64,000 bases of DNA from Geodermatophilus dictyosporus (GTDB lineage: Bacteria; Actinomycetota; Actinomycetes; Mycobacteriales; Geodermatophilaceae), in NCBI RefSeq assembly GCF_900115505.1, contig NZ_FOWQ01000005.1:186001-250000 (forward strand), written 5' to 3'. The translations under genes were made by a program, and so were the position numbers. Below the pieces are notes generated by a model. The model had not been told where the DNA came from. It made no database searches and worked only from the letters and a program-made list of their open reading frames with translations. Positions 21,807 to 63,844 of the stretch are shown one piece after another. The first letter of the stretch is position 1, and every line of letters begins with the position of its first letter.

Positions 21807-21860
21807 GGCCCCGTCCGGGGGCGCGCCCTGAGCGTGCAAAAGATGAGGGGACGGGGTCCT
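21807..21860 (-). repeat. Stop-proximal palindromic element, copy A
   Basis: Arms GGCCCCGTCC (21807-21816) and GGACGGGGTCC (21849-21859) enclose a divergent centre. It lies downstream of dxs (minus strand), 45 nt after its stop, and forms the broken end of the DUF77-like pseudogene. Confidence 0.6.
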
Positions 21861-21905
21861 CCTCCTGGATCCCGGCGATCACCCGGTCACCGGCCGGCGC
21901 CGACG

Positions 21906-23816
21906 TCAGTGCTGGGCGCCGTCGACGGGCAGCGCCTGCTCCTCGCGCTCGGTGAGCACCGCGGTCCACTCGGCGATCCGCCGGGCGACGTCCTGCTCGG
22001 TCAGCCCGGCGTCGGCCAGGACCTGGCCGCGGCTGCCGTGCTCGAGGAACGCCTGCGGCAGGCCCACGGCGCGCACCGGGACGTCGTGCCCGGCGTCCTG
22101 CAGCGCCTGGGTCAGCGTCGTGCCCAGGCCGCCGGCCCGGCCGCCGTCCTCGACGGTCACCACCAGGCGGTGGCCCGTGGCGAGCTCGACGAGCTGCGCG
22201 GGGACCGGCACCACCCAGCGCGGGTCGACGACGGTGACCTCGATGCCGTGGTCGGCGGCCCGCTCGGCGGCGGCCAGGCACAGCGGCACCATCGAGCCGA
22301 CGGCGACCAGCAGCACCTCCTCGCGCCCGCCCCGGCGCAGCACGTCGACCGGGCCGCGCCGCTCCAGCGCCGGGATGTCGACCGGCGGCGGGCCCTTGGG
22401 GAAGCGCACGACGGTGGGGCCGTCGGTCACCTCGACGGCCTCGCGCAGCGCCTCCCGCAGCGTCGGCTCGTCCCGCGGCGCGGCCAGCCGCAGCCCCGGC
22501 ACCACCGGCAGGATCGACATGTCCCACATGCCGTTGTGCGACGCGCCGTCGGTGCCGGTCACCCCGGCCCGGTCCAGGACGACGGTCACCGGCTGGCGGT
22601 GCAGCGCGACGTCCATGAGCAGCTGGTCGAAGGCGCGGTTGAGGAACGTCGAGTAGACCGCGACCACCGGGTGCAGCCCGCCCATCGCCATGCCCGCGGC
22701 GCTGGTGAGCGCGTGCTGCTCGGCGATGCCGACGTCGAAGGTGCGCTCGGGCCACCGCTCGGCGAAGGCGGCCAGACCGGTGGGGTGCAGCATCGCCGCG
22801 GTCACGGCCACGACGTCGGCCCGCTCGGCGCCGATGCGCACCAGCTCGTCGGAGAAGGCCGCCGTCCAGTCGCGGGCGGCGCTGGGGCTGGCACCGCTGT
22901 CGGGGTCGAAGACCCCGGTGGCGTGCCACGCGTCGATCTGGTCGGTCTCGGCCGGCGGGTAGCCGAAGCCCTTGGTGGTGACCGCGTGCACGATCACCGG
23001 GCCGCCGAAGGAGCGCGCGCGGCGCAGCGCCGACTCCATGGTCTCGACGTCGTGCCCGTCGACCGGGCCGATGTACTTCATGCCGAGGTCCTCGAACATG
23101 CCCTGCGGCGACAGGACGTCCTTGAGGCCCTTCTTGATGGCGTGCAGCGCGTCGTAGAGCGCCGAGCCGACGACGGGCGCGCGGTGCAGGGCGTGGCGCA
23201 CCTGCAGCAGCGCCTGCTCGTAGCCCGGCCGCAGTCGCAGCGTGCCCAGCGCGTCGGCGACGCCGCCGATGGTCGGCGAGTAGGAACGGCCGTTGTCGTT
23301 GACGACGATGACCACGGGCCGGTCCTGGGCGGCGGCGATGTTGTTGAGCGCCTCCCAGGCCATGCCGCCGGTGAGCGCGCCGTCGCCGACGACGGCGACC
23401 ACCGGCCGCTGGTCGCCCCGGACGGCGAAGGCCTTGGCCAGCCCGTCGGCGTAGGACAGCGCCGTCGAGGCGTGGCTGTTCTCCACCCAGTCGTGCTCGC
23501 TCTCGGCGCGGCTGGGGTAGCCCGACAGCCCGTCGCGCTGGCGCAGCCGCTCGAAGCCCCCGACCCGGCCGGTGAGCATCTTGTGCACGTAGGCCTGGTG
23601 GCCGGTGTCGAAGACGATCGGCTCGCGCGGGGACTCGAACACCCGGTGCAGCGCGATGGTCAGCTCGACCGTCCCGAGGTTGGGGCCGAGGTGCCCGCCG
23701 GTGCGCGCGACGCTGGTGACGAGCGCGTCGCGGATCTCGGCGGCCAGCGCGGGCAGCCGGTCGGCGGGCAGCGCCCTCAGGTCGGCGGGGTCTCGGAGGG
23801 AGCGCAGGAGCGACAC
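21906..23816 (-). CDS. dxs: 1-deoxy-D-xylulose-5-phosphate synthase
   Basis: 636-residue thiamine-diphosphate enzyme condensing pyruvate and glyceraldehyde 3-phosphate, first step of the MEP isoprenoid pathway. The substrate/TPP motifs [35 protein letters not shown] and VNDN, the transketolase-like middle ([18 protein letters not shown]) and the C-terminal domain are complete. GTG 23816 ([16 protein letters not shown]) is the usual family start. It corresponds to Rv2682c and diverges from the ROK regulator; the sugar operon downstream is absent at this place in mycobacteria. Confidence 0.97.
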
Positions 23817-24004
23817 GGCGGCGCGGTGTCCTCTCTGTCGGCGGCAGGGGCACGGCACCGGAGGGCCGCCGACCCACTGTAGTCGCGCTCCGGCGGGCAC
23901 CTCTGGTCGCGCGTGAGACGAGGAGCACTCCCCCGGATCACGCCTCGACGTCGGACTTCCGTCGATCGTTGACATAAGCCGGACCGGCCCCGGACCATCC
24001 CGGC

Positions 24005-25177
24005 ATGGACCCCCGGCCGTGGCTGCCCGACCTCACCGGGCCGCCGCGCCGCCTGGTCGAGGCGCTGCGCCTCGGCGGCCCGGCCACCCGCGCCCAGCTG
24101 GTCGAGCAGACCGGCCTGTCGCGGGCGACGGTCTCGGGGTACGTGAGCGACCTGGTGGGCCGCGGCCTGGTCAGCCCGGCCGACGCGCAGCCCACCGGCG
24201 GCCGCCCGGCCGGCCTGGTGCGCCTCACCCGCCGGGCCGGCGTGGTGGTCGGGGTGGACGTCGGCCGCACGCACGTCCGCGTCGCCGTCGCCGACCTCTC
24301 CCACGAGGTGGTCGGCGAGCACGTGGTCTCCCTCGCCGTCGCCGACCTGGCGGCCGACGCCGCCCTGGACGCCGTCGCGGCGCGGGTGTGCGCCGAGCTG
24401 GAGCGGGTGGGCGCGACCTCGGCCGACGTCGCCGGGATGGTGGTCGGGCTGCCCACGCCGCTGGTGGGCGGGGCGGCGACCGCCGAGGCCACCGTGGCGC
24501 AGTCGAACATCCTGCCGACCTGGTCGGGCAGCGCCCCGGCCCTGGAGCTGCGGCGGCGGCTGGCCGTCCCGGTCATCGCCGACAACGACGCCAACCTGGG
24601 CGCGCTGGCCGAGGTCCGGTGGGGGGCCGGCCGCGGGTCCCGCTTCACCGTCTACCTCAAGATGGCGACCGGGGTCGGCGGCGCGCTGGTGCTCGACGGC
24701 CACCTGCTGCGCGGTGTGGGCGGCACCGCCGGGGAGATCGGGCACGTCAGCCTGGACCCCGCGGGGGCGCTGTGCCGCTGCGGCAACCGCGGCTGCCTGG
24801 AGCTCACCGCCGGCGGCGGCGCGCTGCTCGACGCCATCCGCACCGCCGCGCCGCAGTACGGCGACCTGCGGTCGCTGGTGGCCGGCGCCGTCGACGGGGA
24901 CCAGGCCTGCCGGCGGCTGGTCGCCGACGCCGGCACCTCGGTCGGCCTCGTCCTCGGCGGCCTGGTCAACACCCTCAACCCCGACCGCATCGTCGTCGGC
25001 GGCGAGCTGGGTGCCGCCGGCGACCTGCTCGTCGACCCGCTGCGGCGGGCGCTCGTCCAGTCCGCCATCCCCGCCGCCGCCGAGCGGCTCGCCGTGGTCC
25101 CCGGCTCGCTCGGGGGGCGCGCCGAGGCGCTCGGGGCGCTGGCGGTCGCGCTCCGCGAGGCCGACCGGCTCGCCTGA
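24005..25177 (+). CDS. ROK-family transcriptional regulator
   Basis: 390-residue XylR/NagC-like ROK protein. An N-terminal helix-turn-helix ([20 protein letters not shown], about 29-48) is followed by a sugar-kinase fold with [18 protein letters not shown], the GVGGALV loop, GEIGHVSL and the zinc motif [10 protein letters not shown]. It has the form of a sugar-responsive repressor. It lies 2.6 kb from the xylose-type transporter, separated by dxs, and is its most likely local regulator. TTGACA at 23970-23975 could be a -35 box. Confidence 0.9.
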
Positions 25178-25194
25178 GGGAGGACTCCCTGTGG

Positions 25195-25563
25195 CTACAG
25201 CCGGGGCACCCACACCTCGCCGCGCAGCGCGCCGGCGACCACCTCGACGCCGCGCCGGGCCGCCACCAGGCGTGCGCCCTCGCGCTCGTAGGCGGTGACG
25301 GCGGCCTCGATCGCGTCCGGCGGCAGCTGGTCGGCGAGCTCCACGCGGACGGTGCGCCAGCCCTCCCGCGCGGCCTCGAGCCCGGCGCGCACGTGGTCGG
25401 CGGCGAACCGCGCGAGCAGCACCGGGTAGCGGCGCAGCACCGCGTGGGCGCGGTAGTCGGGCGGGACCAGGTCGAACAGCCAGGCCACCGCCGTCGCCTC
25501 CCAGTCGGGGGCACCCGGCGGCCGCACCTGCTCCGGCCAGCCCGGAGGAACGTCAGCTCCCAC
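25195..25563 (-). CDS. Conserved actinobacterial hypothetical protein
   Basis: 122 residues. The pattern WLFDLVPPDYRAHAVLRRYP and then AADHVRAGLEAAREGWR is familiar from actinobacterial proteins of unknown function; the C-terminal half is a mixed alpha/beta region. GTG 25563 is the only plausible start near the conserved part. It is convergent with the ROK gene. Confidence 0.7.
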   Translation of the reverse strand: MGADVPPGWPEQVRPPGAPDWEATAVAWLFDLVPPDYRAHAVLRRYPVLLARFAADHVRAGLEAAREGWRTVRVELADQLPPDAIEAAVTAYEREGARLVAARRGVEVVAGALRGEVWVPRL

Positions 25564-25614
25564 GACCGGGAGTCTGCCGCACGTCGAACGGGTGTTCGAC
25601 CCGACGGGCCGGAT

Positions 25615-25672
25615 GGCCACCCCTCGGGGTCCCGCGCCGAGCCTGCAAGGCGTGGGGGGAGGGGTGGTCCTC
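25615..25672 (-). repeat. Stop-proximal palindromic element, copy B
   Basis: Arms GGCCACCCCTC (25615-25625) and GAGGGGTGGTCC (25659-25670). Inner stem is the CGCC/GGCG version. It ends 13 nt from the stop of the minus-strand gene at 25686. Confidence 0.8.
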
Positions 25673-25685
25673 CCACCGGTCGGGA

Positions 25686-25922
25686 TCAGCCGGCGGGCCG
25701 CTTGAGCCAGAACTGCTCGAACCCCCAGGTGCCCGCGCCGCTGGAGTGGTAGCTGACCAGTTCCCAGCCCTCGCCACCGAGACGGTTGAGCACCGAGCTG
25801 GTGTCCCCCTGCTGCCGCTCGAGCCGGCCGTTGGGGAGCTTGACGCTCACCCCCGCCCGCTGCGACTCGGCGTCGTTGGCCGTGATGACCGAGGCGTACT
25901 CCCAGGTGGTCACGCCGCCCAC
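25686..25922 (-). CDS. DUF4177-like small protein
   Basis: 78 residues. TTWEYASVITANDAESQ at the N-terminus and LNRLGGEGWELVSYHSSG resemble DUF4177-type single-domain proteins (short beta-strand, helix, then GWELV). ATG 25922 or GTG 25913 may be the start. Function unknown. Confidence 0.7.
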   Translation of the reverse strand: MGGVTTWEYASVITANDAESQRAGVSVKLPNGRLERQQGDTSSVLNRLGGEGWELVSYHSSGAGTWGFEQFWLKRPAG

Positions 25923-26571: not shown

Positions 26572-27912
26572 TCAGCCGGAAGGGGTGAACAGCGCCACGC
26601 ACTCGACGTGGGCGGTCATCGGGAAGGCGTCGAACCCGCGCAGCCCCGCGAGGCGGTAGCCGGCGGCGGCGAACGCGGCGGCGTCGCGGCCGAGCGAGGC
26701 CGGGTCGCAGGCCACGTAGACCACCGCGCGCGCCCGGGTGCCGGCCAGCACGCGGCAGACCGCCGGCCCGGCGCCGGCCCGCGGCGGGTCCAGGACGACG
26801 ACGTCCGGGGTGCCGCCGAGCTCCTCGAGCAGCCCGGTGAGGCCCTCGGCGTCCACCTCGCCCTGCCACACCTCGGCCTGCGGCAGTCGGGCGAGGTTCG
26901 CCTCGGCCGCCGCGCACGCCTCGGCGTCGGCCTCCACGCAGACCACCCGGCCGGTCTCCCCCGCCGCGGGCGCCAGCGCCCCGCCGAAGAGCCCGGCGCC
27001 GGCGTACAGGTCGAGCACGGTGTCCCCGGCGCGCACGCCGGTGGACGCGGACACCGCGTCCACCAGGGCGTCGGCCGCCGACTCGTGCACCTGCCAGAAG
27101 CCGGTGCCCTCGACCTCCCAGTCCCGGCCGCCGGCGCGCCGCCCGGCCCGCCGGGCGGGCTCGGCCGGCACGTCGGCCCCCGGCCGCAGCACCCGTGTCG
27201 ACGTCGGGACACCGCGGCGGTCCAGCCGGGTGGTGGTCACCGCGCCGGCCGAGTCGACGGCGACGTCGACCGCCCCGGCGCCGGGCCAGCGCCGGCCCAG
27301 CACCGCCCGCGCGGCGGACTCCACGGTGATCGGGCAGTCCTCGAGCGGGACGACGTCGTGCGAGCGGTGCCGACGCAGCCCCGGCACGCCGTCGCGGCCG
27401 ACGGCGAAGCGGGCCCGCGACCGCCAGCGCAGCGGCCCGCCGGGCAGCGGCTCGACGGCGAGGTCGCGCACCACCGGGTCGGCGGCGTCCAGCCCGCCCA
27501 GGCGGGTCAGCTGCTCCCGGACGACGCCGGCCTTCAGCCGCAGCTGGCCCTCGTGCGAGACGTGCTGCCAGTCGCAGCCGCCGCAGCGCCCGGGCCCGCT
27601 GTACGGGCAGGGCCGCTCGACCCGGTCGGGCGCGGCCTCGAGCACCTCGACGGCGTCGGCGCGGCAGTAGCCGGGCTGGCGGTCCTCGGTGACCCGGGCG
27701 ACGACCCGCTCCCCCGGCAGGGCGTGCCGGACGAACACCACCCGGCCCTCGGCGCGCGCGACGCAGTGCCCCCCGTGCGCCACCGGCCCGACGGTCACGG
27801 TGAGCTCTCGGCCGACCCAGCCCAGGCCCCGCTCCGGCCGCGTCTGTCGGCCCCGCTGCAGGGGCCTGCCGCGAGCCTGCGAGCGGTGGGGGGCAGCGGG
27901 GTCCTCACCCAT
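26572..27912 (-). CDS. TRAM-domain 23S rRNA m5U/RlmD-type methyltransferase
   Basis: SAM-dependent RNA (uracil-C5) methyltransferase matching Rv2689c. Order: TRAM domain (VGPVAHGGHCVAR), a [4Fe-4S] cysteine cluster (RPCPYSGPGRCGGCDWQ plus LEDC later), the Rossmann SAM site DLYAGAGLFGG, VLDPPRAG and the catalytic Cys in VYVACDPASLGRD. ATG 27912 overlaps the permease stop; starting there, about 20 N-terminal residues are encoded by palindromic element C. GTG 27798 would avoid the element but start inside the first TRAM strand. Confidence 0.9.
   Translation of the reverse strand: MGEDPAAPHRSQARGRPLQRGRQTRPERGLGWVGRELTVTVGPVAHGGHCVARAEGRVVFVRHALPGERVVARVTEDRQPGYCRADAVEVLEAAPDRVERPCPYSGPGRCGGCDWQHVSHEGQLRLKAGVVREQLTRLGGLDAADPVVRDLAVEPLPGGPLRWRSRARFAVGRDGVPGLRRHRSHDVVPLEDCPITVESAARAVLGRRWPGAGAVDVAVDSAGAVTTTRLDRRGVPTSTRVLRPGADVPAEPARRAGRRAGGRDWEVEGTGFWQVHESAADALVDAVSASTGVRAGDTVLDLYAGAGLFGGALAPAAGETGRVVCVEADAEACAAAEANLARLPQAEVWQGEVDAEGLTGLLEELGGTPDVVVLDPPRAGAGPAVCRVLAGTRARAVVYVACDPASLGRDAAAFAAAGYRLAGLRGFDAFPMTAHVECVALFTPSG
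27849..27905 (-). repeat. Stop-proximal palindromic element, copy C
   Basis: Arms GGCCCCGCTGC (27849-27859) and GCAGCGGGGTCC (27893-27904), inner stem CCGC/GCGG type. It directly follows the permease stop and, if ATG 27912 is used, is translated as the start of the methyltransferase. Confidence 0.85.
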
Positions 27913-29938
27913 ACGGCGTGGCCTCGACCTGGTCGTCGGTCAGACCACGGCGCAGGTCACCGGGCATCGGGCCCGGCCGGTCGTCGTCGCCCCGGCCGAC
28001 CGAGCTCTCCAGCTGCCACGGCACCGTGGTGATCATGACGCCGGGCTGGAACTGCAGCCGGGCGCGGAGCCGCAGCGCGCTCTGGTTGTGCAGCACGTTC
28101 TCCCACCAGTGGCCCACCACGTACTGCGGCACGAAGACGATGACCAGCTCCCGCGGGCTGCGCCGGCGGATCCCCTTGACGTAGTCGACGACCGGCCGGG
28201 TGATCTCCCGGAAGGGCGACTCCAGCACGGTCAGCGGCACCGGGATGTCGTAGCGCTCCCAGTCGGCCTGCAGGCCGCGGGTCTCGGCGTCGTCGACGTT
28301 GACCGTCACCGCGGTCAGCACGTCCGGCCGCGTCGCGCGCGCGAAGGCCAGGGCCCGCAGCGTCGGCTTGTGCACCTTGGACACCAGCACGATGGCGTGC
28401 ACCTTGCTGGGCAGCAGCCGCGCGTTGCTGTCCGGGGTGAGCTGCTCAGCGACGTGCGAGTAGTGCCGGTTGATCGCCCGCATGAGCAGGAAGAGCACCG
28501 GCATGACGAGGAGCACCAGGTAGGCGCCGCGGGTGAACTTCGTGACGATGATGATCAGCAGCACGATCGTGGTCAGGCTGCCGCCGACGGCGTTGATCAG
28601 CTGCGACCGGCGGATCCGCGCGCGGCTCCGCGGGTCGGTCTCGGTGGCCAGCTCCCGCCGCCAGTGCCGGACCATCCCCCACTGGCCGATCGAGAAGCTG
28701 GTGAACACCCCGACGATGTACATCTGGATCAGCCGGTTGACGTCGGCGGAGAAGGCGACGATGAGCAGTGCGGCGAACCCGGCGAGCAGCAGGATGCCGT
28801 TGCTGTAGACCAGCTTGTCGCCGCGGGTGTGCAGCTGGCGGGGCAGGAAGCTGTCCTGCGCGAGCACGTTGCCCAGCAGCGGGAAGCCGTTGAACGCCGT
28901 GTTCGCGGCGAGGATGAGGACCAGCGCGGTGGCCGCCTGGATGGCGAAGAAGCCGACCGAGGTGTCCCCGCCGAAGGTCGCCGCGGCGACCTGGGCGATG
29001 ACCGTGCGCTGCGGCTCGGTCTCGCAGGCCGTGAAGCCGACGAGGTCGCAGGGGTGCTCGGCGTACCTGACGTCGGCGAAGAGGGCCAGCGCGGTGACGC
29101 CGGAGAACATCGTCGCGGCGATGCCGCCCATGAGCGCCAGCGTCGTCGCCGCGTTGCGGCTCTTGGGCGGCTTGAACGCCGGGACGCCGTTGGCGATCGC
29201 CTCGACGCCGGTGAGCGCGGTGCACCCGGAGGCGAAGGCGCGCAGCACGAAGAAGACCAGTGCCAGGCCGGTCACCTGCTCGAACCCGGGCTCGGGGGTG
29301 ATCGAGTAGCCGGCGCTCTCGGCGGTGATGTCCTGGCCGAAGAAGTGCCGGACCAGCCCGGTCACGACCATGACCAGGATGCCGGAGATGAACAGGTAGG
29401 TCGGGACGGCGAACGTGCGGCCGGACTCCCGCAGCCCGCGCAGGTTGGCCGCGGCCAGCAGGGCCACCAGCCCCACGGCGATGGCCACCCGGTGCCGGTC
29501 GAGGTCGGGGAAGGCCGAGATGATGTTGTCGGTGCCGGCCGCCACCGACACCGCCACGGTGAGCACGTAGTCGACCAGCAGCGCGCTGGCCACCACCAGC
29601 CCGGCGAACTGCCCGTGGTTCTTGATCGCCACCTCGTAGTCCCCGCCGCCGGAGGGGTAGGCCCGCACCACCTGGCGGTAGGAGAGGACGACGGTCCCCA
29701 GCAGCAGGACGACGGCGATCGCCAGCCAGGGCGCGAGGAAGAGGAACGCCGTGCCGGCCAGCGTGAGGACGATGAGGATCTCCTGCGTGGCGTAGGCCAC
29801 CGAGGAGAGCGGGTCGCTGGCGAAGATCGGCAGCGCCAGGCGCTTGGGCAGCAGCGACTCGCCGGCGCGGTCGCTGCGGACCGGTCGGCCCAGGACGAGC
29901 CGCTTCGGGAGTTGTCCGAGGTCGGACAGGCGTGGCAC
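27905..29938 (-). CDS. KimA-like APC-superfamily permease
   Basis: 677-residue membrane protein with about 12 transmembrane helices in the first 470 residues (FASDPLSSVAYATQEIL, YPSGGGDYEVAIKNHG are diagnostic of this APC branch) and a cytosolic C-terminal domain of about 180 residues containing VHAIVLVSKVHKPTLRAL and LVIVFVPQYVVGHWWEN. This layout resembles KimA/YdaO potassium importers more than amino-acid permeases. GTG 29938 begins VPRLSDLGQLPKRLVLGRP as in Rv2690c relatives. It diverges from two TrkA/RCK genes. Confidence 0.88.
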   Translation of the reverse strand: MPRLSDLGQLPKRLVLGRPVRSDRAGESLLPKRLALPIFASDPLSSVAYATQEILIVLTLAGTAFLFLAPWLAIAVVLLLGTVVLSYRQVVRAYPSGGGDYEVAIKNHGQFAGLVVASALLVDYVLTVAVSVAAGTDNIISAFPDLDRHRVAIAVGLVALLAAANLRGLRESGRTFAVPTYLFISGILVMVVTGLVRHFFGQDITAESAGYSITPEPGFEQVTGLALVFFVLRAFASGCTALTGVEAIANGVPAFKPPKSRNAATTLALMGGIAATMFSGVTALALFADVRYAEHPCDLVGFTACETEPQRTVIAQVAAATFGGDTSVGFFAIQAATALVLILAANTAFNGFPLLGNVLAQDSFLPRQLHTRGDKLVYSNGILLLAGFAALLIVAFSADVNRLIQMYIVGVFTSFSIGQWGMVRHWRRELATETDPRSRARIRRSQLINAVGGSLTTIVLLIIIVTKFTRGAYLVLLVMPVLFLLMRAINRHYSHVAEQLTPDSNARLLPSKVHAIVLVSKVHKPTLRALAFARATRPDVLTAVTVNVDDAETRGLQADWERYDIPVPLTVLESPFREITRPVVDYVKGIRRRSPRELVIVFVPQYVVGHWWENVLHNQSALRLRARLQFQPGVMITTVPWQLESSVGRGDDDRPGPMPGDLRRGLTDDQVEATPYG

Positions 29939-31443: not shown

Positions 31444-32343
31444 TCAGTCCGGCGGCGGGGCAGCTCTGTCGGCCTCGTCCCAAGTCCCGCCGTGAGCCTG
31501 CGAGGGGTGGGGAGGACGAGGTCCTGCCACGGTCTCGACCCTGTGCCGGTGCAGCCGGGCGACCACCCAGAGGGTGACCGCCAGCGCGACCGCGGTCACC
31601 GGCAGGCCGAGCACCAGCGAGGCGACGCCGAGCAGGTCCTCCTCGTTGGCCAGGTACAGCGGCGTCTGCACCGCCACCCGCAGCAGGAACGTCAGCGCCC
31701 ACATCACCGTGAGCCAGCCGTAGGCCCGCACCACCCGGGGGTCGTCGCGCCAGTGCCGCTCGGGCTCCGGGTCGACCCGGCGGCCGTCGGGCGCCGTCTC
31801 GGGCGGCGGCCGGTGGTGCAGTCGCGCCCGGGCGGTGTCCACCCGCCGCCGCAGCCCCGGCAGCGAGTGCGCGGCCATCGAGCCCAGGTGGCTCGGTGCC
31901 AGGAACTCGGCGAGGACGCCGACCAGCGGCCAGCGCAGCGGCACCGACCCGAGCAGCACCACGCCGATGACGGCGTTGCGGATGATCCCCGGCACGAAGT
32001 AGTTGCGCGCCTGCCCGGACGCCGCGGCGATGGCCACCGCGACGGCGACGCCGAACAGGCCGCTGAACGCCTGCTGCAGGCTCTCCCGCCGGACCAGCCG
32101 GAACAGCACGACGAGGACGGCGGCGCCCAGCGCGCTGTAGACGCCGGTGCGCAGGTCGCCGATCGCGTTGGCGACGATGAAGGCGATGGTCGGCAGGGAG
32201 GCGTCGACCATCCCCCGCCAGCCGCCGAGCTGGTCGAGGACCAGGTGCCGGTCGAAGGTGAGCGGCCGGTCGTCCTCGGGCTCGTCGTGCGGTGCTGCTC
32301 CCCCCGGGTCGCGCCGGCCGTCGTCGTCGGCCGCCGGGGTCAC
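31444..32343 (-). CDS. DUF3159 membrane protein with repeat-encoded tail
   Basis: 299-residue DUF3159 protein (Rv2693c position). LGGWRGMVDASLPTIAFIVAN near residue 38 and several membrane helices (about 40-150 and 225-280) are typical. The last 28 residues (from VAGPRPPHPSQAHGG) are encoded by palindromic element D: the frame runs through the repeat to a stop at 31444. GTG 32343 overlaps the stop of the upstream OB-fold gene. Function unknown. Confidence 0.87.
   Translation of the reverse strand: MTPAADDDGRRDPGGAAPHDEPEDDRPLTFDRHLVLDQLGGWRGMVDASLPTIAFIVANAIGDLRTGVYSALGAAVLVVLFRLVRRESLQQAFSGLFGVAVAVAIAAASGQARNYFVPGIIRNAVIGVVLLGSVPLRWPLVGVLAEFLAPSHLGSMAAHSLPGLRRRVDTARARLHHRPPPETAPDGRRVDPEPERHWRDDPRVVRAYGWLTVMWALTFLLRVAVQTPLYLANEEDLLGVASLVLGLPVTAVALAVTLWVVARLHRHRVETVAGPRPPHPSQAHGGTWDEADRAAPPPD
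31471..31525 (-). repeat. Stop-proximal palindromic element, copy D
   Basis: Arms GGCCTCGTCC (31471-31480) and GGACGAGGTCC (31514-31524). It is inside the 3' end of the DUF3159 reading frame and between two convergent genes. Confidence 0.8.
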
Positions 32344-35730: not shown

Positions 35731-35759
35731 CCCCTGCCCTCTCGGTGACGTGCTGGAAC

Positions 35760-35815
35760 GGCCCCCTCGCAGGGCCCCGCCGCGAGCGTGCGAGCGGTGG
35801 GGGCGAGGGGGTCCT
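35760..35815 (-). repeat. Stop-proximal palindromic element, copy E
   Basis: Arms GGCCCCCTCGC (35760-35770) and GCGAGGGGGTCC (35803-35814), inner CCGC/GCGG type. It begins 3 nt after the DUF4193 stop. Its distal flank GACGTGCTGGAACGGCC (35747-35763) reappears exactly, reversed, right after the sigA stop. Confidence 0.85.
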
Positions 35816-35818
35816 CGT

Positions 35819-36121
35819 TCAGGCGGCGCAGTCGCGGCAGTACAGCTGGTCGCCCTTGGTGGCGGCCAGCCGGCTGCGGTGCTGCACCAGGAAGCAGCGC
35901 GAGCAGGTGAACTCGTCCTCCTGCTTGGGCAGCACGCGGACGGTCAGCTCCTCGTTGGACAGGTCCGCGCCGGGCAGCTCGAGGCTCTCGTTGAAGTCGG
36001 TCTCGTCGACGTCGACCGAGGCGGACTGGGCCTCGGCACGCCGCGCCTTGAGCTCCTCGAGGGAGTCCTCGCCGAGCTCGTCGGCCTCGTTGCGGCGCGG
36101 GGCGTCGTAGTCGGTGGCCAT
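35819..36121 (-). CDS. DUF4193 zinc-ribbon protein
   Basis: 100-residue DUF4193 protein (Rv2699c position). The acidic N-terminal half (ATDYDAPRRNEADELGEDSL) leads to a zinc ribbon EFTCSRCFLVQHRSRLA and YCRDCAA. GGAGGAGGGG precedes ATG 36121. Function unknown; usually highly conserved and near sigA. Confidence 0.95.
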   Translation of the reverse strand: MATDYDAPRRNEADELGEDSLEELKARRAEAQSASVDVDETDFNESLELPGADLSNEELTVRVLPKQEDEFTCSRCFLVQHRSRLAATKGDQLYCRDCAA

Positions 36122-37535: not shown

Positions 37536-38072
37536 GTGAGCGTGGCAACCGAGACGCCCCCGGTGCGCCCCCGCAAGGACCGCCGGCTGATCCCGCCGCT
37601 GGTCTTCCTGCTCGTCCTGGCCCTCGCCGCCCTCGGCGTGTGGTGGAAGGTGCTCTCCGACGCCAGCGCCCGGGAGGAGGCCGCCGACGCCGCCTGCGCG
37701 ACCGCCGAGGCCGCCCCGCCGTCCCTGGACCCCTCGACGGTGGCCGTGCGCGTCTTCAACGCCACCGACACCGCGGGCCTGGCCCAGACGGTGGCCGCCG
37801 AGCTGCAGCAGCGCGGCTTCGTCGTCGAGGAGATCGCCAACGACTCCAGCGACCGCGAGGTGACCGGCCCCGGTGAGGTGCGCCACGGCCCGGCCGGCGG
37901 CGACGCGGCCGCCTACCTGGGGCTGTTCCTCCCCGGCGCCGGCAGCTACCAGGACACCCGGGCCGACGCGCGCGTCGACCTGGTGATCGGTCCGGAGTTC
38001 GACCGGCTGGCCTCGCCCGAGGAGGTCGCGGCCACCCTCACACCCATCGCCAGCGCCGAGGCGGCCTGCTAG
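37536..38072 (+). CDS. cei: Envelope integrity protein Cei (LytR_C domain)
   Basis: 178 residues, Rv2700 homologue. A short cytosolic N-terminus with basic residues, one transmembrane helix (LIPPLVFLLVLALAALGVWW, about 21-40), then an extracytoplasmic LytR_C domain (VAVRVFNATDTAGLAQTVAA, VDLVIGPEFDRLA). GAGGAGG lies 7 nt before GTG 37536. In mycobacteria it supports cell-envelope integrity. Confidence 0.92.
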   Translation: MSVATETPPVRPRKDRRLIPPLVFLLVLALAALGVWWKVLSDASAREEAADAACATAEAAPPSLDPSTVAVRVFNATDTAGLAQTVAAELQQRGFVVEEIANDSSDREVTGPGEVRHGPAGGDAAAYLGLFLPGAGSYQDTRADARVDLVIGPEFDRLASPEEVAATLTPIASAEAAC

Positions 38073-38074
38073 CG

Positions 38075-38100
38075 GCGCCTCGCGGAGGCGAGGGGGTCCT
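38075..38100 (-). repeat. Stop-proximal palindromic element, short copy I
   Basis: CGCCTC (38076-38081) and GAGGCG (38085-38090) with a 3-nt loop, followed by AGGGGGTCCT that abuts the suhB stop. It shares GGCGAGGGGGTCCT with copy E but lacks the conserved centre, so it appears to be a deletion derivative. Confidence 0.6.
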
Positions 38101-38913
38101 TCACGGGTGCAGCCGGTCGAGGAGGGCGAGGAACGGCTCGGCGACCGTCTCGGGGACGGCGACGGCCATCGGCGCGGCGAAGGGCCGGCCGGGCAGGCCG
38201 GTGACGACCAGCCCCGCCTCGGCGGCCACCAGGGCGCCGGCCGCGTGGTCCCACGGCTTGAGGTCGAGCTCGTAGTAGGCGTCCACCCGCCCGGCGGCCA
38301 CCGAGCACAGGTCGAGCGACGCGCAGCCCTGGCGGCGGATGTCGCGCACCTCGGTCAGCAGCGCGGCGACGACGGCGCCCTGCGCGCGGCGCTGCTCCAC
38401 CCGGTAGCCGAAGCCGGTGGCCACCAGCGTCTGCCCGAGGGAGTCCGGCCGGTTCCCGGACAGCCGCACGGGCTCCGGCTCGGCCGGCGTCGAGAGGAAC
38501 GCCCCGCCGCCGGCGGTCGCGGTGAACAGCTCCCCGGTGGGCACGTCGAGCACCGCACCGGCCACGGTGGCGCCGTCGACCTGGGCGGCGATCGAGACGG
38601 CGTAGCCGCGCAACCCGTAGAGGAAGTTGACCGTCCCGTCGATCGGGTCGACCACCCACCGCACGCCGCTGGTGCCCTGCCGGTCGGCGCCCTCCTCGCC
38701 GAGCAGCCCGTCGTCGGGCCGCGCCGCGAGCAGCCGGCTGGTGATCAGCTGCTCGGCGGCGGTGTCGACGGCGGTGACGACGTCGGTCGGGCTGGACTTG
38801 ACGTCGACGGCGGCGGCCGCCGACCCGCGCTCGCGGGTGATCAGCGCGGCCGCCTCCCGGGCGGTGTAGACCGCGAGGTCGAGCAGGACGGCGGGCGGGG
38901 GCGCGGCACTCAC
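38101..38913 (-). CDS. suhB: Inositol monophosphatase family protein
   Basis: 270-residue Mg-dependent phosphatase. Metal ligands are in LLGEEG, DPIDGTVNFLYG and KPWDHAAG. GTG 38913 gives the expected length. Homologue of Rv2701c SuhB, likely producing myo-inositol for phosphatidylinositol and mycothiol, though related enzymes act on other sugar phosphates. Diverges from ppgK. Confidence 0.93.
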   Translation of the reverse strand: MSAAPPPAVLLDLAVYTAREAAALITRERGSAAAAVDVKSSPTDVVTAVDTAAEQLITSRLLAARPDDGLLGEEGADRQGTSGVRWVVDPIDGTVNFLYGLRGYAVSIAAQVDGATVAGAVLDVPTGELFTATAGGGAFLSTPAEPEPVRLSGNRPDSLGQTLVATGFGYRVEQRRAQGAVVAALLTEVRDIRRQGCASLDLCSVAAGRVDAYYELDLKPWDHAAGALVAAEAGLVVTGLPGRPFAAPMAVAVPETVAEPFLALLDRLHP

Positions 38914-38965: not shown

Positions 38966-39721
38966 GTGACCGCCGTGCAGCAGGGCTTCGGGGTGGACAT
39001 CGGTGGCAGCGGCATCAAGGGCGGCCTGGTCGACCTCGCGCAGGGCGCGCTCGTCGGCGAGCGGTTGCGGGTGGAGACGCCGCGGCCCTCGACGCCGGAG
39101 GCGGTCTACCGGGAGGTCGCCGGGATCGTGGCGTCCTTCGGCTGGACCGGCCGGATCGGCGTCACCTACCCCGGCGTGATGAAGCGCGGCGTCGCCTACA
39201 CCGCCGCGAACATGGACCCGGGCTGGATCGGCACCGACGTCGACGCCGGGATGACCGCGCTGGTCCCCGGCACCGTCGAGACGCTCAACGACGCCGACGC
39301 CGCCGGGCTGGCCGAGATGCGCTACGGCGCCGGCCGCGACCGCCGCGGCGTGGTGCTCATGCTCACCTTCGGCACCGGCATCGGCAGCGCCCTGTTCGTC
39401 GACGGGCACCTGGTGCCCAACACCGAGTTCGGCCACATCCAGGTCGACAGCGAGGACGGCGAGAAGCGGGCATCGGCGGCGGCCAAGGACCGGGAGGACC
39501 TCAGCTACCCCCAGTGGGCCAAGCGGGTCGACCGCTACCTCGACGTCCTCGAGAACGGGCTGTGGCCCGACCTGATCATCGTCGGCGGCGGCGTGAGCAA
39601 GAAGGCGCACAAGTGGGTGCCACTGCTGACCACCCGCACGGAGGTCGTGCCGGCGCAGCTGCTCAACGACGCGGGCATCGTCGGGGCGGCACTCACCGCC
39701 GCCGAGCGCATCGACCACTGA
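38966..39721 (+). CDS. ppgK: Polyphosphate glucokinase
   Basis: 251-residue ROK-fold kinase using polyphosphate (or ATP) to phosphorylate glucose. [31 protein letters not shown] and [20 protein letters not shown] (the region typical of PPGK rather than ATP-glucokinases) are present. GTG 38966 or GTG 38975 may be the start. Rv2702 homologue. A nested pair of palindromic elements follows 2 nt after the stop. Confidence 0.96.
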
Positions 39722-39723
39722 GG

Positions 39724-39838
39724 AAGGACCCCTCCGCCCCCCGGGAAGGACCTCCCTGCCCCCCACCGCTCGCAGGCTCGCGGCGGGCCCCTGCAGGAAG
39801 GCCGGCAAACGCTCGGCGCGGGCCCCTGCGGAGGGGCC
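39724..39838 (+). repeat. Palindromic element, outer copy F' interrupted by copy F
   Basis: Outer arms GGACCCCTCCG (39726-39736) and CGGAGGGGCC (39829-39838). Its centre retains CGCTCGGCGCGGG of the CGCC/GGCG subtype on the right side, but the left half of the centre is replaced by a complete second element (39746-39803). Confidence 0.75.
39746..39803 (+). repeat. Stop-proximal palindromic element, copy F (nested)
   Basis: Arms GGACCTCCCTGC (39748-39759) and GCAGGAAGGCC (39793-39803), inner CCGC/GCGG type with the conserved CTCGCAGGCTCGCGG loop region. It is in plus orientation, matching the upstream plus-strand ppgK, opposite to the copies behind minus-strand genes. Confidence 0.85.
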
Positions 39839-39927
39839 GGTCACGGCTGCTCCTGCCACTCGGGGCGTCGGTCACCCCTCGGAGGGAGCGGCTGACCTGG
39901 GGTGGTGTGGCGCCCCCTCCGGGCGAG

Positions 39928-40141: not shown

Positions 40142-41497
<1,356 letters not shown>

Positions 41498-44711: not shown

Positions 44712-45788
44712 GTGAGCACCGTGCGGGCCGGCGGGCCGCCCCGCACGGACGGGGCGGCCGGGGAGCGCACCGACGGCTCGCCGGCCCCCGCGGGCACCGC
44801 CTCGGGGGCACGCCGCGCCGACGTCCCGCGGCCCGGGCGGCTCGACCACTGGCCGGCCGTGGTCCGCGTGCCGCTGCAGGTGCTCGGCCGCGCGGTGGCC
44901 AAGGCGTGGCAGGACCGCATCCTGGGGCTGTCCGGCGAGGCGGCGTTCTGGCAGATCCTCTCGGTGCCGCCGCTGCTGATCGCCCTGCTCGGCTCGCTCG
45001 GCTTCCTGGGCGACTGGATCGGCGCGGCATCGGTGCAGACCGTCGAGGACACCCTGGTCGACGCCTCCAGCCAGGTGCTGACCGCCGACGTCGTCGACAC
45101 GCTCGTGCGGCCCACCCTCAGCGACATCCTGACCTCGGGCCGGCTCGACGTGGTCAGCCTCGGCTTCCTGCTCACCCTGTGGGCCGGGTCGTCGGCGACG
45201 GCGACGTTCATGAACACGATCGTCATCGCCTACGACCAGCGCGACGTCCGCGGCCCGATCCGGACCCGGCTGATGGCGCTGGGGCTCTTCGTCGTGGGCC
45301 TGGTGCTCGCGGTGCTCATGCTGCCGCTGCTGGTGCTCGGGCCCGGCCTGCTCGTCGCGGTGCTGCCGCAGGACTGGCAGGACACCGCCACGGTGCTGAT
45401 CAACGCGGTGTACGTACCGCTGGTGGTCGTGGGCCTGGTGCTGGCGCTGGCGAGCTTCTACCACGTGATCCTGCCCCGGCGGCTGCCGTGGCGGCGGCAC
45501 CTGCCGGGCACGGTGCTCGCGGTGGTCTTCTTCGTGGTGGCGGCGACGGTGCTGCGGCTCTACGTCTCCGACATCCTGGTCGCCGCGCTGCCCTACGGGG
45601 CGCTGGCCACCCCGATCGCGGCGCTGCTGTTCCTGTTCTTCTTCGGGATGGCCGTGCTGCTGGGCGCCGAGCTCAACGCGGCCGTGCAGGAGCGCTGGCC
45701 CGCGCCCCTGCGCCGGCACACCCGGCGGGCCCAGCGCCGCCGGGCCGCCGAGCTGCAGGCCGAGGCCAGGCGCCTCGGCCTGCAGTGA
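44712..45788 (+). CDS. YihY/BrkB-family membrane protein
   Basis: 358-residue inner-membrane protein of the YihY/virulence factor BrkB family (once mislabelled RNase BN). About six transmembrane helices; the diagnostic LSGEAAFWQILSVPPLLIAL, WAGSSATATFMNTI and FFGMAVLLGAELNAAVQERW are present. GTG 44712 is preferred. Transport or envelope function is unproven. Convergent with DUF3039 across palindromic element G. Confidence 0.92.
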   Translation: MSTVRAGGPPRTDGAAGERTDGSPAPAGTASGARRADVPRPGRLDHWPAVVRVPLQVLGRAVAKAWQDRILGLSGEAAFWQILSVPPLLIALLGSLGFLGDWIGAASVQTVEDTLVDASSQVLTADVVDTLVRPTLSDILTSGRLDVVSLGFLLTLWAGSSATATFMNTIVIAYDQRDVRGPIRTRLMALGLFVVGLVLAVLMLPLLVLGPGLLVAVLPQDWQDTATVLINAVYVPLVVVGLVLALASFYHVILPRRLPWRRHLPGTVLAVVFFVVAATVLRLYVSDILVAALPYGALATPIAALLFLFFFGMAVLLGAELNAAVQERWPAPLRRHTRRAQRRRAAELQAEARRLGLQ

Positions 45789-45799
45789 GCGACTGGAAC

Positions 45800-45858
45800 G
45801 GCCACCCTTCAGGGGCCCCGCGCCGAGCGGAGCGAGGCGTGGGGTGAAGGGTGGTCCT
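45800..45858 (-). repeat. Stop-proximal palindromic element, copy G
   Basis: Arms GGCCACCCTTCA (45800-45811) and TGAAGGGTGGTCC (45845-45857), inner stem CCCCGCGCC (45816-45824)/GGCGTGGGG (45836-45844), the compensated CGCC/GGCG version. It ends 1 nt from the DUF3039 stop. Confidence 0.87.
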
Positions 45859-45859
45859 T

Positions 45860-46087
45860 CTACTTGCGGAGCTGCTCGTAGACCTCCTTGCAGGCCGGGC
45901 ACACCGGGCTGCCGGGCTTGGGGCTCTTGGTCACCGGGAACACCTCACCGCACAGGGCCTCGACCAGCGTGCCCATGACCGCGCTCTCGGCGATCTTGTT
46001 CTTGCGCACGTAGTGGAAGACCTCGTTGGCGTTGCCGGTGTCGCTGTCGCGGACGTCGGGCTTCTCGAGGAGGTCGGAGTCGCTCAC
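45860..46087 (-). CDS. DUF3039 protein
   Basis: 75-residue DUF3039 protein (Rv2708c position). NEVFHYVRKNKIAESAVMG and ALCGEVFPVTKSP...CPACKEVYEQL with three cysteines that may bind zinc are typical. GTG 46087 is preferred; longer in-frame starts exist up to 46201 but overlap the divergent promoter. Function unknown. Confidence 0.93.
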   Translation of the reverse strand: MSDSDLLEKPDVRDSDTGNANEVFHYVRKNKIAESAVMGTLVEALCGEVFPVTKSPKPGSPVCPACKEVYEQLRK

Positions 46088-51752: not shown

Positions 51753-52152
51753 TCAGAGCTGCAGGACCGCGGCCGCGCTGAGGTACGCCGCCGACACACC
51801 CTCGGGGTCGTGCAGGTCCCCCGGGTCCGCCACCGCCGCCCGGGACCGCGCGCGCACCGCGGCTCCGGGGTCCTCGGCGACGAGGTCGACGGACAGCCCT
51901 GTGACGACGGCACGGGCGTCGTGCTCGTCCGGGCCGTCGAGGGCCAGGCCGTCGTGGAGCAGCTGCGCCGCCTCCCGGAACACCTCGCGGGCCAGCTCGG
52001 GGTCCACGTCGGGCCGCTCGCGGGCCACCGCCTCGGCGGCCGCCAGGAACTGCCCGAACGGCGGGCCCACGCCGGGGGGGGGGGGGGGGCGACGTGCCGC
52101 GAGCCTCCCAGCGCGGGTCCGTGGGGACGACGCGGTCGTACCACTCGCTCAC
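51753..52152 (-). pseudogene. Small helical protein gene split by a G16 run
   Basis: Two in-frame halves are separated at a run of 16 G (52074-52089; C on the coding strand). The 5' part from GTG 52152 reads VSEWYDRVVPTDPRWEARGT, then polyproline; the 3' part reads GPPFGQFLAAAEAVARERPD and continues to a stop at 51753. They are offset by one base: 15 or 18 C would give a single protein of about 132 residues with a Pro5 (or Pro6) linker. It may be phase-variable, a real frameshift or a sequencing error. Function unknown. Confidence 0.55.
52074..52089. repeat. G16 homopolymer
   Basis: Sixteen consecutive G on the plus strand within a minus-strand coding region; by far the longest homopolymer in the window. 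Confidence 0.9.
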
Positions 52153-58689: not shown

Positions 58690-59673
58690 GTGACGCTCCT
58701 CCAGTCTTCCCCCAGTGACGCCCTCGAGGTCCGCTCACCGCGCCGCGAGCCGGACACCAGTGGCCTGGTGTCGACCGACCTGGTGCGCGTGTACCTCAAC
58801 ACCATCGGCAAGACCGCCCTGCTGACCGCCGAGCAGGAGGTGGAGCTCGCCAAGCGCATCGAGGCGGGGCTCTACGCCGAGCGGCTGCTCGGCGAGCGGC
58901 AGCTCACCCCCGCCGTCGAGCGCGACTACAAGGCCCTCGCGGCCGACGGCAAGGCCGCCAAGCGCCACCTGCTGGAGGCCAACCTCCGGCTGGTCGTGTC
59001 GGTCGCCAAGCGCTACACCGGCCACGGCATGACGTTCCTGGACCTCATCCAGGAGGGCAACGTCGGCCTCATCCGCGCCGTGGAGAAGTTCGACTACACC
59101 AAGGGCTTCAAGTTCTCGACCTACGCGACGTGGTGGATCCGCCAGGCGATCACCCGCGCGATGGCCGACTCCGGCCGCACCATCCGGCTGCCCGTGCACC
59201 TGGCCGAGCAGGTCAACAAGGTCGTGCGGACCCGCCGGCGGGTGCACCAGGAGCTCGAGCGCGAGCCCACCGCCGAGGAGCTCGGCCTCGAGCTGGACAT
59301 GACGCCCGAGCGGGTCACCGAGCTGCTCGAGTACAGCCGCGACCTGGTCTCGCTCGACCAGACCGTCGGTGCCGACGAGGAGTCCCGCCTGGGTGACTTC
59401 ATCGAGGACGCCGACGCCGCGGTGGCCGAGGACGCGGTGGCCTTCCAGATGATGAAGGGCGACGTGCGCAACGTGCTCTCCACGCTGGAGGACCGCGAGC
59501 GCGACGTGGTCGTGCTCCGCTTCGGCCTCGACGGCGGCCAGCCCCGCACGCTCGAGCAGATCGGCAAGCAGTTCGGTCTCTCCCGCGAGCGGGTGCGCCA
59601 GATCGAGCGCGAGACGATGGCCAAGCTGCGGGACCCGCAGCGCGCCGACGCCCTGCGCGACTACCTGGCCTAG
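58690..59673 (+). CDS. sigB: Group 2 sigma factor SigB
   Basis: 327-residue sigma-70 closely resembling SigA in regions 1.2-4 ([59 protein letters not shown]) but with only 28 residues before region 1.2. The short N-terminus and the stress-type promoter identify it as SigB, Rv2710 homologue, a stress/stationary sigma factor. GTG 58690 is used. A strong hairpin follows. Confidence 0.95.
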
Positions 59674-60342: not shown

Positions 60343-60409
60343 CCCGGTCCACCCGATGAGTTCCGGCCCGGGCGCCGGTCTGCCCGTCGTGGACACCGAG
60401 GAGGGGACC

Positions 60410-61054: not shown

Positions 61055-61069
61055 GGCCGGCCGCGGCGC

Positions 61070-63844
61070 TCAGTACAGGTCGCGCATCCGGCGGGCTCCG
61101 GGCTCGACGCGCGCGGTGGGCGGGCCGACCCGGGCGGTGCCCCCGGCCACGACCAGCGAGCGGCCGCCGTGCCAGGGGTTCGCCGGGCCGACGATGACCG
61201 GCGTCAGGTCCAGGCCGAGCACCTCGGGCAGGTCGTCGGCCAGCCGGGCCACCCGCAGCAGCAGGTCCTCGAGCGCGGCCACGTCGACCGGCTCGGCCCC
61301 CCGCCAGCCGTCGAGCAGCGGCCAGGCGCGCGGGGCGCGCACCAGCTCGGCGGCGTCGAGGTCGGTGAGCGGCAGGGTGCGGTAGGCCCGGTCGCCGAGC
61401 AGGTCGGTGGCCACCCCGCCGACGCCGAAGCTGACCAGCGCGCCGAACGACGGGTCGTCGACCACCTCCACCACGGTGGCCACCCCCGGGGCGGCCATCT
61501 CCTGCACGATCACCGGGTCACCGGCGGGGATGGCGGCGTACGCGGCCCGGACGGCGGCGGCGTCGGCCAGGTCCAGCCGCACCCCGCCGAGGTCGGTACG
61601 GTGCCGCAGCCAGGGCGCCGTCGACTTGAGCACGACCGGGTACCCGACGGCGTCCGCGGCCGCGACCGCCTGCTCGGCGTCGGTGACCACCCGGGTGCCC
61701 AGCAGCGGGATGCCGTAGGCGCCCAGCAGGGCCAGCGCCTCGTCGTCGGTGAGCGGCCGGCCCGCGGGGCTGTCGGCCAGTGCGCCCTGGACGATCGCCC
61801 GGGCGCGCTCCTCGTCGACGTCGGGCAGCTCGGGCACCGTGCCCACCGGCCGCTGCCGCCAGCGCGCGTACTCGGTGACCCGGGCCAGCGCGATGACCGC
61901 CCGCTCCGGCGTCGCGTAGGAGGGCACCGAGCCGCGGGCGGGCATGCCGGCCGCGTCGGGCAGGGTCAGCTCCGGCAGGAAGCCCTCGGCGGAGAGGAAC
62001 GTCGCCACGACCGGCTTGGCCGAGCCGACCGAGACCTCGCGCAGCGCCCGGCCGTACTCCTCGGGCGGCGTGCGCACCAGCGGCGGCAGGAACACCGCCA
62101 CCACGGCGTCGACCCCGTCGTCGTCCACGGCCGACTGCAGCGCCGCGCGGAACTCCTCCGGGCTGCCGCCGGTGCCGATGTCGACCGGCGCCTCGTGCGC
62201 CAGGGCGAGCCCCTGGTCGAGGACGGCGTCGGCGACCAGCACGCCCAGCGCCGTCGAGTTGCCGACGACGGCCACCCGGTCGCCGTCCGGCAGCGGCTGG
62301 TGGGCCGCGAGCATGCCGACCTCGAACAGCTGCGCGACGGTGTCGACCCGGATGACGCCGGCCGAGGTGAAGAGGGCCGCCACCGACTGCTCGGGCACGG
62401 CCACCGAGGTGCCGGCCAGGCCCGGCGCGAGGCCGCCGTGCCGGCCGCTCTTGACCGCCACCACCGGCTTGGTGCGGGCCACCGAGCGAGCCAGCCGGGC
62501 GAACTTGCGCGGGTTGCCGAAGCTCTCCAGGTGCAGCAGCACGACCTCGGTGCCGGGGTCGGTGGCCCAGTACTGCAGCAGGTCGTTGCCGCTGACGTCG
62601 GCGCGGTTGCCGGCCGAGACGAAGCTCGACAGGCCGATGTTGCGGCTGCGCGCCCGCTCCAGCAGCGCCACGCCCAGCGCACCGGACTGCGCGAAGAAGC
62701 CGACCCGGCCCCGGCCCGGCACCTGCGGCGCGAGGCTGGCATCGAGCCGCACGGCCGGGTCGGTGTTGACGATGCCCAGGCAGTTGGGTCCGACCACGCG
62801 CATGCCCGAGGCGCGGGCGGCGGCGACCAGCCGGCGCTCGGCGTCCCGGCCGGCCGGGCCGCTCTCGCCGAAGCCGCCCGAGATGACCACCAGGCCGCGC
62901 ACCCGCTTGCGCCGGCAGCTCTCGACGACCCCGGCCACCTCGTCGGCCGGCACGGCGACGACGGCGAGGTCGACGTCGTCGGGGATGGCCTCGATGGAGG
63001 CGAAGGCCGGCACGCCGCGCACGTGCCGCACGTTCGGGTTGACCGGGTAGACCGGGCCGTCGAAGCCGTACTCGAGCAGGTTGCGCAGGACGGCGTTGCC
63101 GACCTTGCCCTCGTCGTTGCTGGCGCCGACCACCGCCACCGACGACGGGGTGAGCAGCCGCGCGATGGAGCGGGACTCGCTGCGCTGCTCGCGCTCGTGG
63201 CTGACCGCGAGCGAGTCGTCGGTGAGCGCGATCGGGAAGGTCAGGTGGACCACGCCGTCCTCGTAGGAGCGGCTGGCGTGGTACCCGGCGTCGAGGAAGA
63301 CCCGCACCATCCGCGCGTTCTGCGCCAGGACCTCGGCGACGAAGCGGGTGATGCCGCGCTCGCGGGCCGCGGCGGCGAGGTGCTCGAGCAGCACCGAGCC
63401 CAGCCCGCGGCCCTGGTGGGCGTCCTCGACGAGGAAGGCGATCTCGGCGTCGGTGGTCCCGGGCAGGCGGTCGTAGCGGCCGACGGCGATCAGCTGGTCG
63501 CCCAGCAGCACGACGAAGGCCACGCGGTCGGAGTGGTCGACGTGGGTGAACCGGTGCAGGTCGCGGTCCGACAGCCGCTTCATCGGCCCGAAGAACCGCA
63601 GGTAGCGGGTCTGGTCGGAGCTGCGCTCCATGAGACCGGTCAGCCCGTCGGCGTCCTCGGGGCAGATCGGGCGCAGGTGCACCGTGCCGCCGTCGGCGGC
63701 GATGATGTCGGCCTCCCAGTGCGCGGGCGGCCGCGGCGCCTCCTGCTCCCCCGGCGGGGTGGCGAGGTCCGCCGACGGCCCCCCTGCAGGGTCCCGCCGC
63801 GAGCTTGCGAGTGGTGGGGGGCAGGGGGGTCCTTGTTCAGTCAC
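61070..63844 (-). CDS. GNAT acetyltransferase fused to acyl-CoA synthetase-like domains (Pat-type)
   Basis: 924-residue fusion: N-terminal GNAT (about 45-200; VEDAHQGRGLGSVLLEHLAA binds acetyl-CoA), a CoA-binding domain (SVAVVGASNDEGKVGNAVL), a succinyl-CoA-ligase-like domain (FAQSGALGVALLERA, SGNDLLQYW), and a C-terminal ATP-grasp domain (YPVVLKSTAPWLRHRTDLGG). This resembles protein lysine acetyltransferases that control acyl-CoA synthetases, or ADP-forming acyl-CoA synthetases. GTG 63844 is the only in-frame standard start before the GNAT domain, so about 20 N-terminal residues are encoded by palindromic element H. Confidence 0.9.
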   Translation of the reverse strand: MTEQGPPCPPPLASSRRDPAGGPSADLATPPGEQEAPRPPAHWEADIIAADGGTVHLRPICPEDADGLTGLMERSSDQTRYLRFFGPMKRLSDRDLHRFTHVDHSDRVAFVVLLGDQLIAVGRYDRLPGTTDAEIAFLVEDAHQGRGLGSVLLEHLAAAARERGITRFVAEVLAQNARMVRVFLDAGYHASRSYEDGVVHLTFPIALTDDSLAVSHEREQRSESRSIARLLTPSSVAVVGASNDEGKVGNAVLRNLLEYGFDGPVYPVNPNVRHVRGVPAFASIEAIPDDVDLAVVAVPADEVAGVVESCRRKRVRGLVVISGGFGESGPAGRDAERRLVAAARASGMRVVGPNCLGIVNTDPAVRLDASLAPQVPGRGRVGFFAQSGALGVALLERARSRNIGLSSFVSAGNRADVSGNDLLQYWATDPGTEVVLLHLESFGNPRKFARLARSVARTKPVVAVKSGRHGGLAPGLAGTSVAVPEQSVAALFTSAGVIRVDTVAQLFEVGMLAAHQPLPDGDRVAVVGNSTALGVLVADAVLDQGLALAHEAPVDIGTGGSPEEFRAALQSAVDDDGVDAVVAVFLPPLVRTPPEEYGRALREVSVGSAKPVVATFLSAEGFLPELTLPDAAGMPARGSVPSYATPERAVIALARVTEYARWRQRPVGTVPELPDVDEERARAIVQGALADSPAGRPLTDDEALALLGAYGIPLLGTRVVTDAEQAVAAADAVGYPVVLKSTAPWLRHRTDLGGVRLDLADAAAVRAAYAAIPAGDPVIVQEMAAPGVATVVEVVDDPSFGALVSFGVGGVATDLLGDRAYRTLPLTDLDAAELVRAPRAWPLLDGWRGAEPVDVAALEDLLLRVARLADDLPEVLGLDLTPVIVGPANPWHGGRSLVVAGGTARVGPPTARVEPGARRMRDLY
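63777..63833 (-). repeat. Stop-proximal palindromic element, copy H
   Basis: Arms GGCCCCCCTGC (63777-63787) and GCAGGGGGGTCC (63821-63832), inner stem CCGC type. It begins 4 nt past the stop of the upstream minus-strand gene and is translated in frame as the start of the GNAT fusion. Confidence 0.87.

Follow-up and report, generated by a model that had tools for sequence, protein, structure and literature searches.

REP-like palindromic elements with hypervariable, complementary arms behind stop codons in Geodermatophilaceae

REPs are high-copy short palindromes that lie close to the 3′ ends of open reading frames (ORFs), many of them within 20 bp, as described in PMC3733652. GTAG REPs and REPINs occur together with TnpA_REP (RAYT) enzymes, which cut at CT, a site whose choice is attributed to A3-G4 of the GTAG foot; the stem bulge is needed by the E. 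coli REP, according to the account in PMC8266576. CGTC-tagged REPs apparently lack a dedicated transposase and have been reported in five phyla without Actinobacteria, while untagged REP-like families are mentioned in M. tuberculosis (PMC3733652). Because REPs are already known near ORF 3′ ends (PMC3733652), position alone does not make a palindrome family new. No earlier description of the family reported here was found among the titles and abstract openings of a mostly non-subscription literature, and the accessible text of one Geodermatophilaceae genome paper contains, under the relevant terms, CRISPR only.

In the family unit of about 60 nt, GGACC and GGCC flank a pair of complementary arms, the left one 6-8 nt long, on either side of a centre of some 33 nt. 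The centre holds an inner stem (CCGC/GCGG, CCCC/GGGG or CGCC/GGCG) and a loop of the type CTCGC-N-GCTCG, resulting in two stacked stems with a loop of about 10 nt. The bulged A, which distinguishes GGACC from GGCC, gives the hairpin a direction; in the 106 copies parsed out of 143, the bulged side reads GGACC in 99, GGGCC in six and GGCC in one. Some copies carry the tail GTTCCAGCACGTCACC.

Like GTAG REPs and REPINs, these elements are high-copy short palindromes near ORF 3′ ends (compare PMC3733652), with a CT beside the hairpin, a stem bulge and a foot tetranucleotide ending in AG (compare PMC8266576). They differ in their GAAG foot, their two stacked stems, their length, their hypervariable arms and their fixed sense orientation. 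The Y1 (RAYT) transposase that goes with GTAG REPs and REPtrons was also not found: PF01797 matched in 0 of 108 family genomes, with a positive control in 5 of 14. Given that both the GTAG foot and PF01797 are absent, the element works like a REP, yet is not classed as one. With the CGTC-tagged REPs it shares the apparent absence of a dedicated transposase (PMC3733652) and CACGTCACC in the tail of some copies, but CGTC is not located at the hairpin foot, a TTCC...TC[AG]C tail is present on just 31 of 143 copies, and stem and loop differ from the 8-9 bp stem and 4-5 nt loop that accompany the CGTC end tag. Those E. coli REPs that lie 15 nt or less from a stop codon likewise place an mRNA hairpin directly behind the stop (PMC12306157). 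A classical MITE would have conserved terminal inverted repeats, unlike the 50 distinct left arms found here among 129 anchored copies. The window had no Rfam match at gathering score. Regarding other movers, a reverse transcriptase is encoded in 48 of 108 family genomes and was ruled out as it is absent from both the own genome and the related genome G064, and a Y2 (IS91-like) transposase gave no match in 26 genomes, the control genomes likewise giving none.

The window, i.e. the whole stretch of 64,000 nt that was analysed, derives from Geodermatophilus dictyosporus (genome G000; other G0xx labels denote related genomes used for comparison). Copies were read on both strands and subsequently aligned. 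A preliminary description had listed about ten related elements, all within about 0-45 nt after a stop codon. Eight of them (A-H) are intact and lie where they had been placed, but D does not follow a stop; the distances given below run from the stop to GGACC. Element B (25611..25673, minus strand) lies 15 nt past gene 25686-25922 and is present in G064 and absent in G063 and G043. Element C (27845..27907, minus) directly adjoins the TGA that ends the permease gene 27905-29938, with 0 nt to GGACC, and element E (35756..35817, minus) 4 nt past the DUF4193 gene 35819-36121. Element G (45796..45860, minus) lies between the DUF3039 gene 45860-46087, 2 nt past its TAG, and a convergent stop at 45788, and element H (63773..63835, minus) 4 nt past a predicted ORF without Pfam match (63837-63971). 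Element A (21802..21862, minus), with a diverged centre, is found 46 nt past the stop of the dxs-like gene 21906-23816. Element D (31466..31528, minus) falls within the predicted DUF3159 ORF 31444-32343, near its 3′ end, and is read through as a C-terminal extension: the G000 protein ends in ...AGPRPPHPSQAHGGTWDEADRAAPPPD, that of G064 in ...DAGAAPPPD without the extension. The two remaining entries are no intact units. F′ (39722..39840, plus; arms at 39729-39737 and 39828-39836, plus) follows the ROK-family gene 38966-39721 with 4 nt from stop to GGACC and is an older copy split by element F (39745..39807, plus), which is nested in its loop. Entry I (38074..38100, minus), between the convergent genes 37536-38072 and 38101-38913, has evidently lost its centre, judged from its G063 ortholog, where the element is still intact and the left arm is identical.

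A covariance model built from A-H scores these eight copies at 58.6-81.9 bits, compared to 18.6 bits for the next best place in the window and 9.8 bits, which is noise level, for I. Seven of the eight were found by an anchor scan that predates the model; F has an arm mismatch. As the model was built from A-H itself, the genome-wide counts are the real test. Two other features were noticed in the window. At about 52064-52120, a GGACC hairpin-like stretch adjoins 16 consecutive C on the minus strand, a run that stands out even at 75.6% GC. A second dispersed repeat (GATCAGGTGACCTGATCGT.GCGCGTCC ... GGACGCGCTGCGGTGCGG) is located at 12130-12264 and in the orthologous flanks of G063, G064, G043 and G049; G063 and G049 have it behind a further gene as well.

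The covariance-model search of family genomes, proposed in the preliminary description, returned 148 hits (E ≤ 1) for the own 4.69-Mb genome (150 of 4456 first-look candidates scored), so that roughly 3% of genes carry a copy (some 4300 genes, extrapolated from the 800 stops of an 864-kb portion). This list recovered 19 of the 21 strong copies of an unbiased 800-kb sample and missed two; compared with these 21, the window is copy-rich, with eight copies in its 64 kb. Matches occur in 101 of 112 family genomes and in 9 of 12 genera (47 candidates scored per genome), with low or zero counts in G001 (0), G029 (0), G017 (2) and G007 (4). A class-wide sample yielded matches in 2 of 394 genomes, both Geodermatophilaceae, hence none outside the family under strict filters with 13 candidates per genome, which weak or rare copies may escape. 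Among the matches listed (80 records), all but one are labelled Geodermatophilus, Blastococcus, Modestobacter, Trujillonella or Geodermatophilaceae, the exception being labelled unverified.

The arms are hypervariable yet complementary. In A-H, nine of 18 pairs changed on both sides, and 17 cells changed on both sides versus 5.7 in shuffles and at most four with the partners slid, which bears out the double covariation of arms and inner stem that had been noted for the window copies. Across the own-genome matches (n = 142; 138 distinct rows), pairing holds in 94.3% of cells, and both sides changed in 300 cells, versus 77.5 shuffled and at most 56 slid, in an alignment that is itself model-fitted. 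A model-free check, anchored on GG[AG]CC and GGCC alone (14 of 143 copies could not be anchored and were dropped), gave seven Watson-Crick pairs out of seven in 67 of 129 copies (5.5 in shuffles) and at least six in 103 (15.9 in shuffles). The covariation thus extends beyond the window, and the compensated arms support the earlier proposal that selection or copying preserves a hairpin.

Genes were called with a simple codon-usage finder; five of the 148 hits have no flank and eight of the other 143 lie inside predicted ORFs, which leaves 135 classifiable copies. As had been claimed for the window, orientation follows the upstream gene: 117 of the 135 are in sense, and 97 start at most 10 nt from the upstream stop, where random intergenic insertion would give 38% and 2.8%, respectively. 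The random genome-wide placement and orientation that would have spoken against the preliminary description were therefore not seen. Uniform insertion of each element in its own gap, with the element removed, would put 26.6 of 117 copies within 6 nt of the stop, whereas 96 are observed there; for gaps of at least 50 nt, the corresponding figures are 4.0 expected and 50 observed out of 67, and in tandem gaps 76 copies are sense and nine antisense. A set of 113 stretches from other genomes, found by one exact centre pattern, gave 98 sense copies out of 104 classifiable ones, 85 of these 98 within 6 nt of a stop (of 114 rows, seven in ORFs and three at edges were dropped). This is not the ordinary hairpin placement of the genome, since, of 413 genes that a short pattern shows to be element-free, 65 have a hairpin of at least 8 bp, only 10 of the 65 starting at 0-5 nt. 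A minority of copies (for example C6:197882, C7:86890 and C10:557138) is located upstream of divergent genes, with the 5′ end close to a CTAG that may belong to a -10 box.

The junction with the stop codon follows a grammar, (C)TGA-N-GAAGG or CTAG-AAGG, the consensus ahead of GGACC being (N)GAA, i.e. a GAAG foot. At a spacing of 4 nt, the stop is TGA in 41 of 45 own copies and in 52 of 53 from other genomes, and a C precedes it in 92 of 98 copies versus 506 of 800 background genes. TAG occurs in 29 of 48 copies at a spacing of 2 or 5 nt, against 5 of 115 at 1 or 4 nt. Of the own copies that do not adjoin a predicted stop (n = 46, some of which may adjoin stops of genes missed by the simple gene finder), CTRR stands immediately upstream in 15 (2.5 expected) and GTRR in 13 (3.4 expected), so the preference is loose at its first position. 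Together, the C ahead of the stop, the link between stop type and spacing, and CTRR away from stops speak for a favoured joining site over selection acting alone. An element that targets any stop trinucleotide was rejected as an explanation, as it predicts 20% of copies at real stops while 96 of 114 are observed; a preference for CTGA, CTAG and CTAA alone predicts 37%, and selection must do the rest.

Comparison of orthologous stops in related species shows gain, loss, nesting and replacement of elements, in agreement with the earlier suggestion that the element can spread. At the site of E, an element or remnant is present in about 21 of 25 species of the genus (by eye), and arms and inner stems mostly differ, even between species with a 100% identical protein. 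Right-half remnants are found there behind a newer copy in G063 and G064, one of them keeping an arm still found in G000. Tandem remnants at this site in G063, G064, G048, G047 and G055 (L183, L184, L195, L196, L205) start near the loop centre (as in AGGCTCGG) and directly follow a tail ending in TCACC, which would fit joining that favours the loop centre (by eye). Behind the ROK-family gene, G063 has the outer element unsplit (CCCCCCGGG-CCGGCAAACG), G000 has F inserted and G064 is also nested; either G000 may have gained the inner copy, or G063 may have lost it. By eye, G000 and G064 both have an element at seven sites, with one site filled in G000 only and two in G064 only; the corresponding counts are 7, 7 and 4 for G063, and 3, 7 and 2 for G043. 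An automatic detector gave 7/4/2, 7/11/4 and 3/9/4, and neither element at 66, 97 and 54 genes, respectively, with at least three false calls (W|15, L173|4, L174|5), three genes counted twice via overlapping loci and some diverged elements missed (G043 at W|64, G064 at L173|2, G063 at L018|2).

Where the flanks show one shared insertion, both arms may differ and yet pair, in few cases. At the DUF3039 site, the arms are ACCCTTC/GAAGGGT in G000 versus CCCTTGC/GCAAGGG in G064, with the same stop and nearly the same tail. A looser parser counted, among 44 pairs that include false ones, both arms changed in 33, the right only in five, the left only in one and neither in five; from these, individually named pairs alone were used. 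The DUF3039 site of G040, G047, G050 and G056 (L213, L223, L222, L221) also carries a repeated stretch (GATCATGG.GTCCGGGTGGCGACACGCC ... ACCGGTGTGTCG), which comes after the stop or after a degenerate element copy. Among 23 pairs in which just one side has an intact element, 20 agree in their C-termini (by eye; detector 30 of 33), and the idea that the element supplies the stop codon and truncates genes was rejected on this ground. No target site duplication was evident by eye in the filled/empty pairs.

On balance, we consider it probable that these are non-autonomous REP-like palindromic mobile elements of the Geodermatophilaceae, which join next to CTRR and survive mainly behind stop codons. 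The unit (N)GAAGG-A-CC-arm-centre-arm′-GG-CC would be copied to new places by a putative enzyme acting on the folded single strand. Such an enzyme would recognise the centre CTCGC-N-GCTCG together with the bulged A and the GAAG foot, and for the arms pairing would suffice. Joining is preferred 3′ of CTRR (CTGA, CTAG); the CT, the foot ending in AG and the bulged A resemble those of TnpA_REP substrates. Selection would remove other copies, leaving mainly those joined at a stop codon in sense, because coding DNA is intolerant and the gene-start side of a gap holds promoters and ribosome sites. More tentatively, the element could be a mobile hairpin recognised by its shape, joined next to CTRR at stops by a putative non-Y1, single-strand enzyme, with both arms renewed together between sister species and new arms arising continually while foot, bulge and loop are kept.

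An RNA module, i.e. a transcribed hairpin that acts on the upstream mRNA, with selection setting its position and orientation, would account for the sense orientation in both genome sets, the start mostly 0-6 nt past the stop and the compensated arms. It might stall ribosomes and provoke cleavage, or protect from 3′ exonucleases, by analogy with stop-proximal E. coli REPs (15 nt at most), which are reported to stall ribosomes (cited in PMC12306157); moreover, in 21 of 64 tandem cases no more than 40 nt separate the element from the next start, which places these elements probably inside operons. We nevertheless find this reading doubtful, as a C before the stop and a link between stop type and spacing are not expected from hairpin RNA function, the element is often absent at the same gene in related species, and so few genes carry a copy. 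An RNA role like that of the stop-proximal E. coli REPs is possible and compatible with spread.

Termination, which the preliminary description had also proposed, is unlikely, and a family of intrinsic terminators without U-tract very improbable, even though the hairpins are strong (median -37.8 kcal/mol over the 97 stop-adjacent copies) and 33 of the 97 lie between convergent genes. TTTT within 10 nt of the hairpin is absent in 97 of 97, and the hairpin follows the stop at 0-6 nt, a shorter spacing than is tolerated by an E. coli terminator, which is almost fully repressed at short distance from a stop (as reported in PMC4824070). A separate terminator-like hairpin is found further on behind 18063-19349, 40244-41497 and 58768-59673, with and without element (by eye), and two of four folded window copies are no better than shuffled sequence (z -1.0, 0.2, -4.6 and -2.8, z-scores being weak evidence at 75.6% GC). 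Template switching within the hairpin, which would copy one arm onto the other and produce covariation by mutation with no need for selection, fits site C, where G000 and G064 share the 33-nt centre and both G064 arms are one base shorter, and C11:22197, where an arm pair is C-G in one and T-A in the other of G000 and G063. It would erase the bulged base, however, which most parsed copies retain, one-sided arm changes also occur (site B in G064), and placement is left unexplained; we regard it as improbable.

The non-autonomous REP-like elements favoured here add a large palindrome family in Actinobacteria. Hairpins behind stop codons in these genomes should not be annotated as terminators. 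The quick, compensated turnover of arms at fixed sites makes it possible to ask whether structural selection or hairpin-templated mutation is at work, and, as no Y1 gene was detected, an enzyme of a different kind is indicated for REP-like spread.
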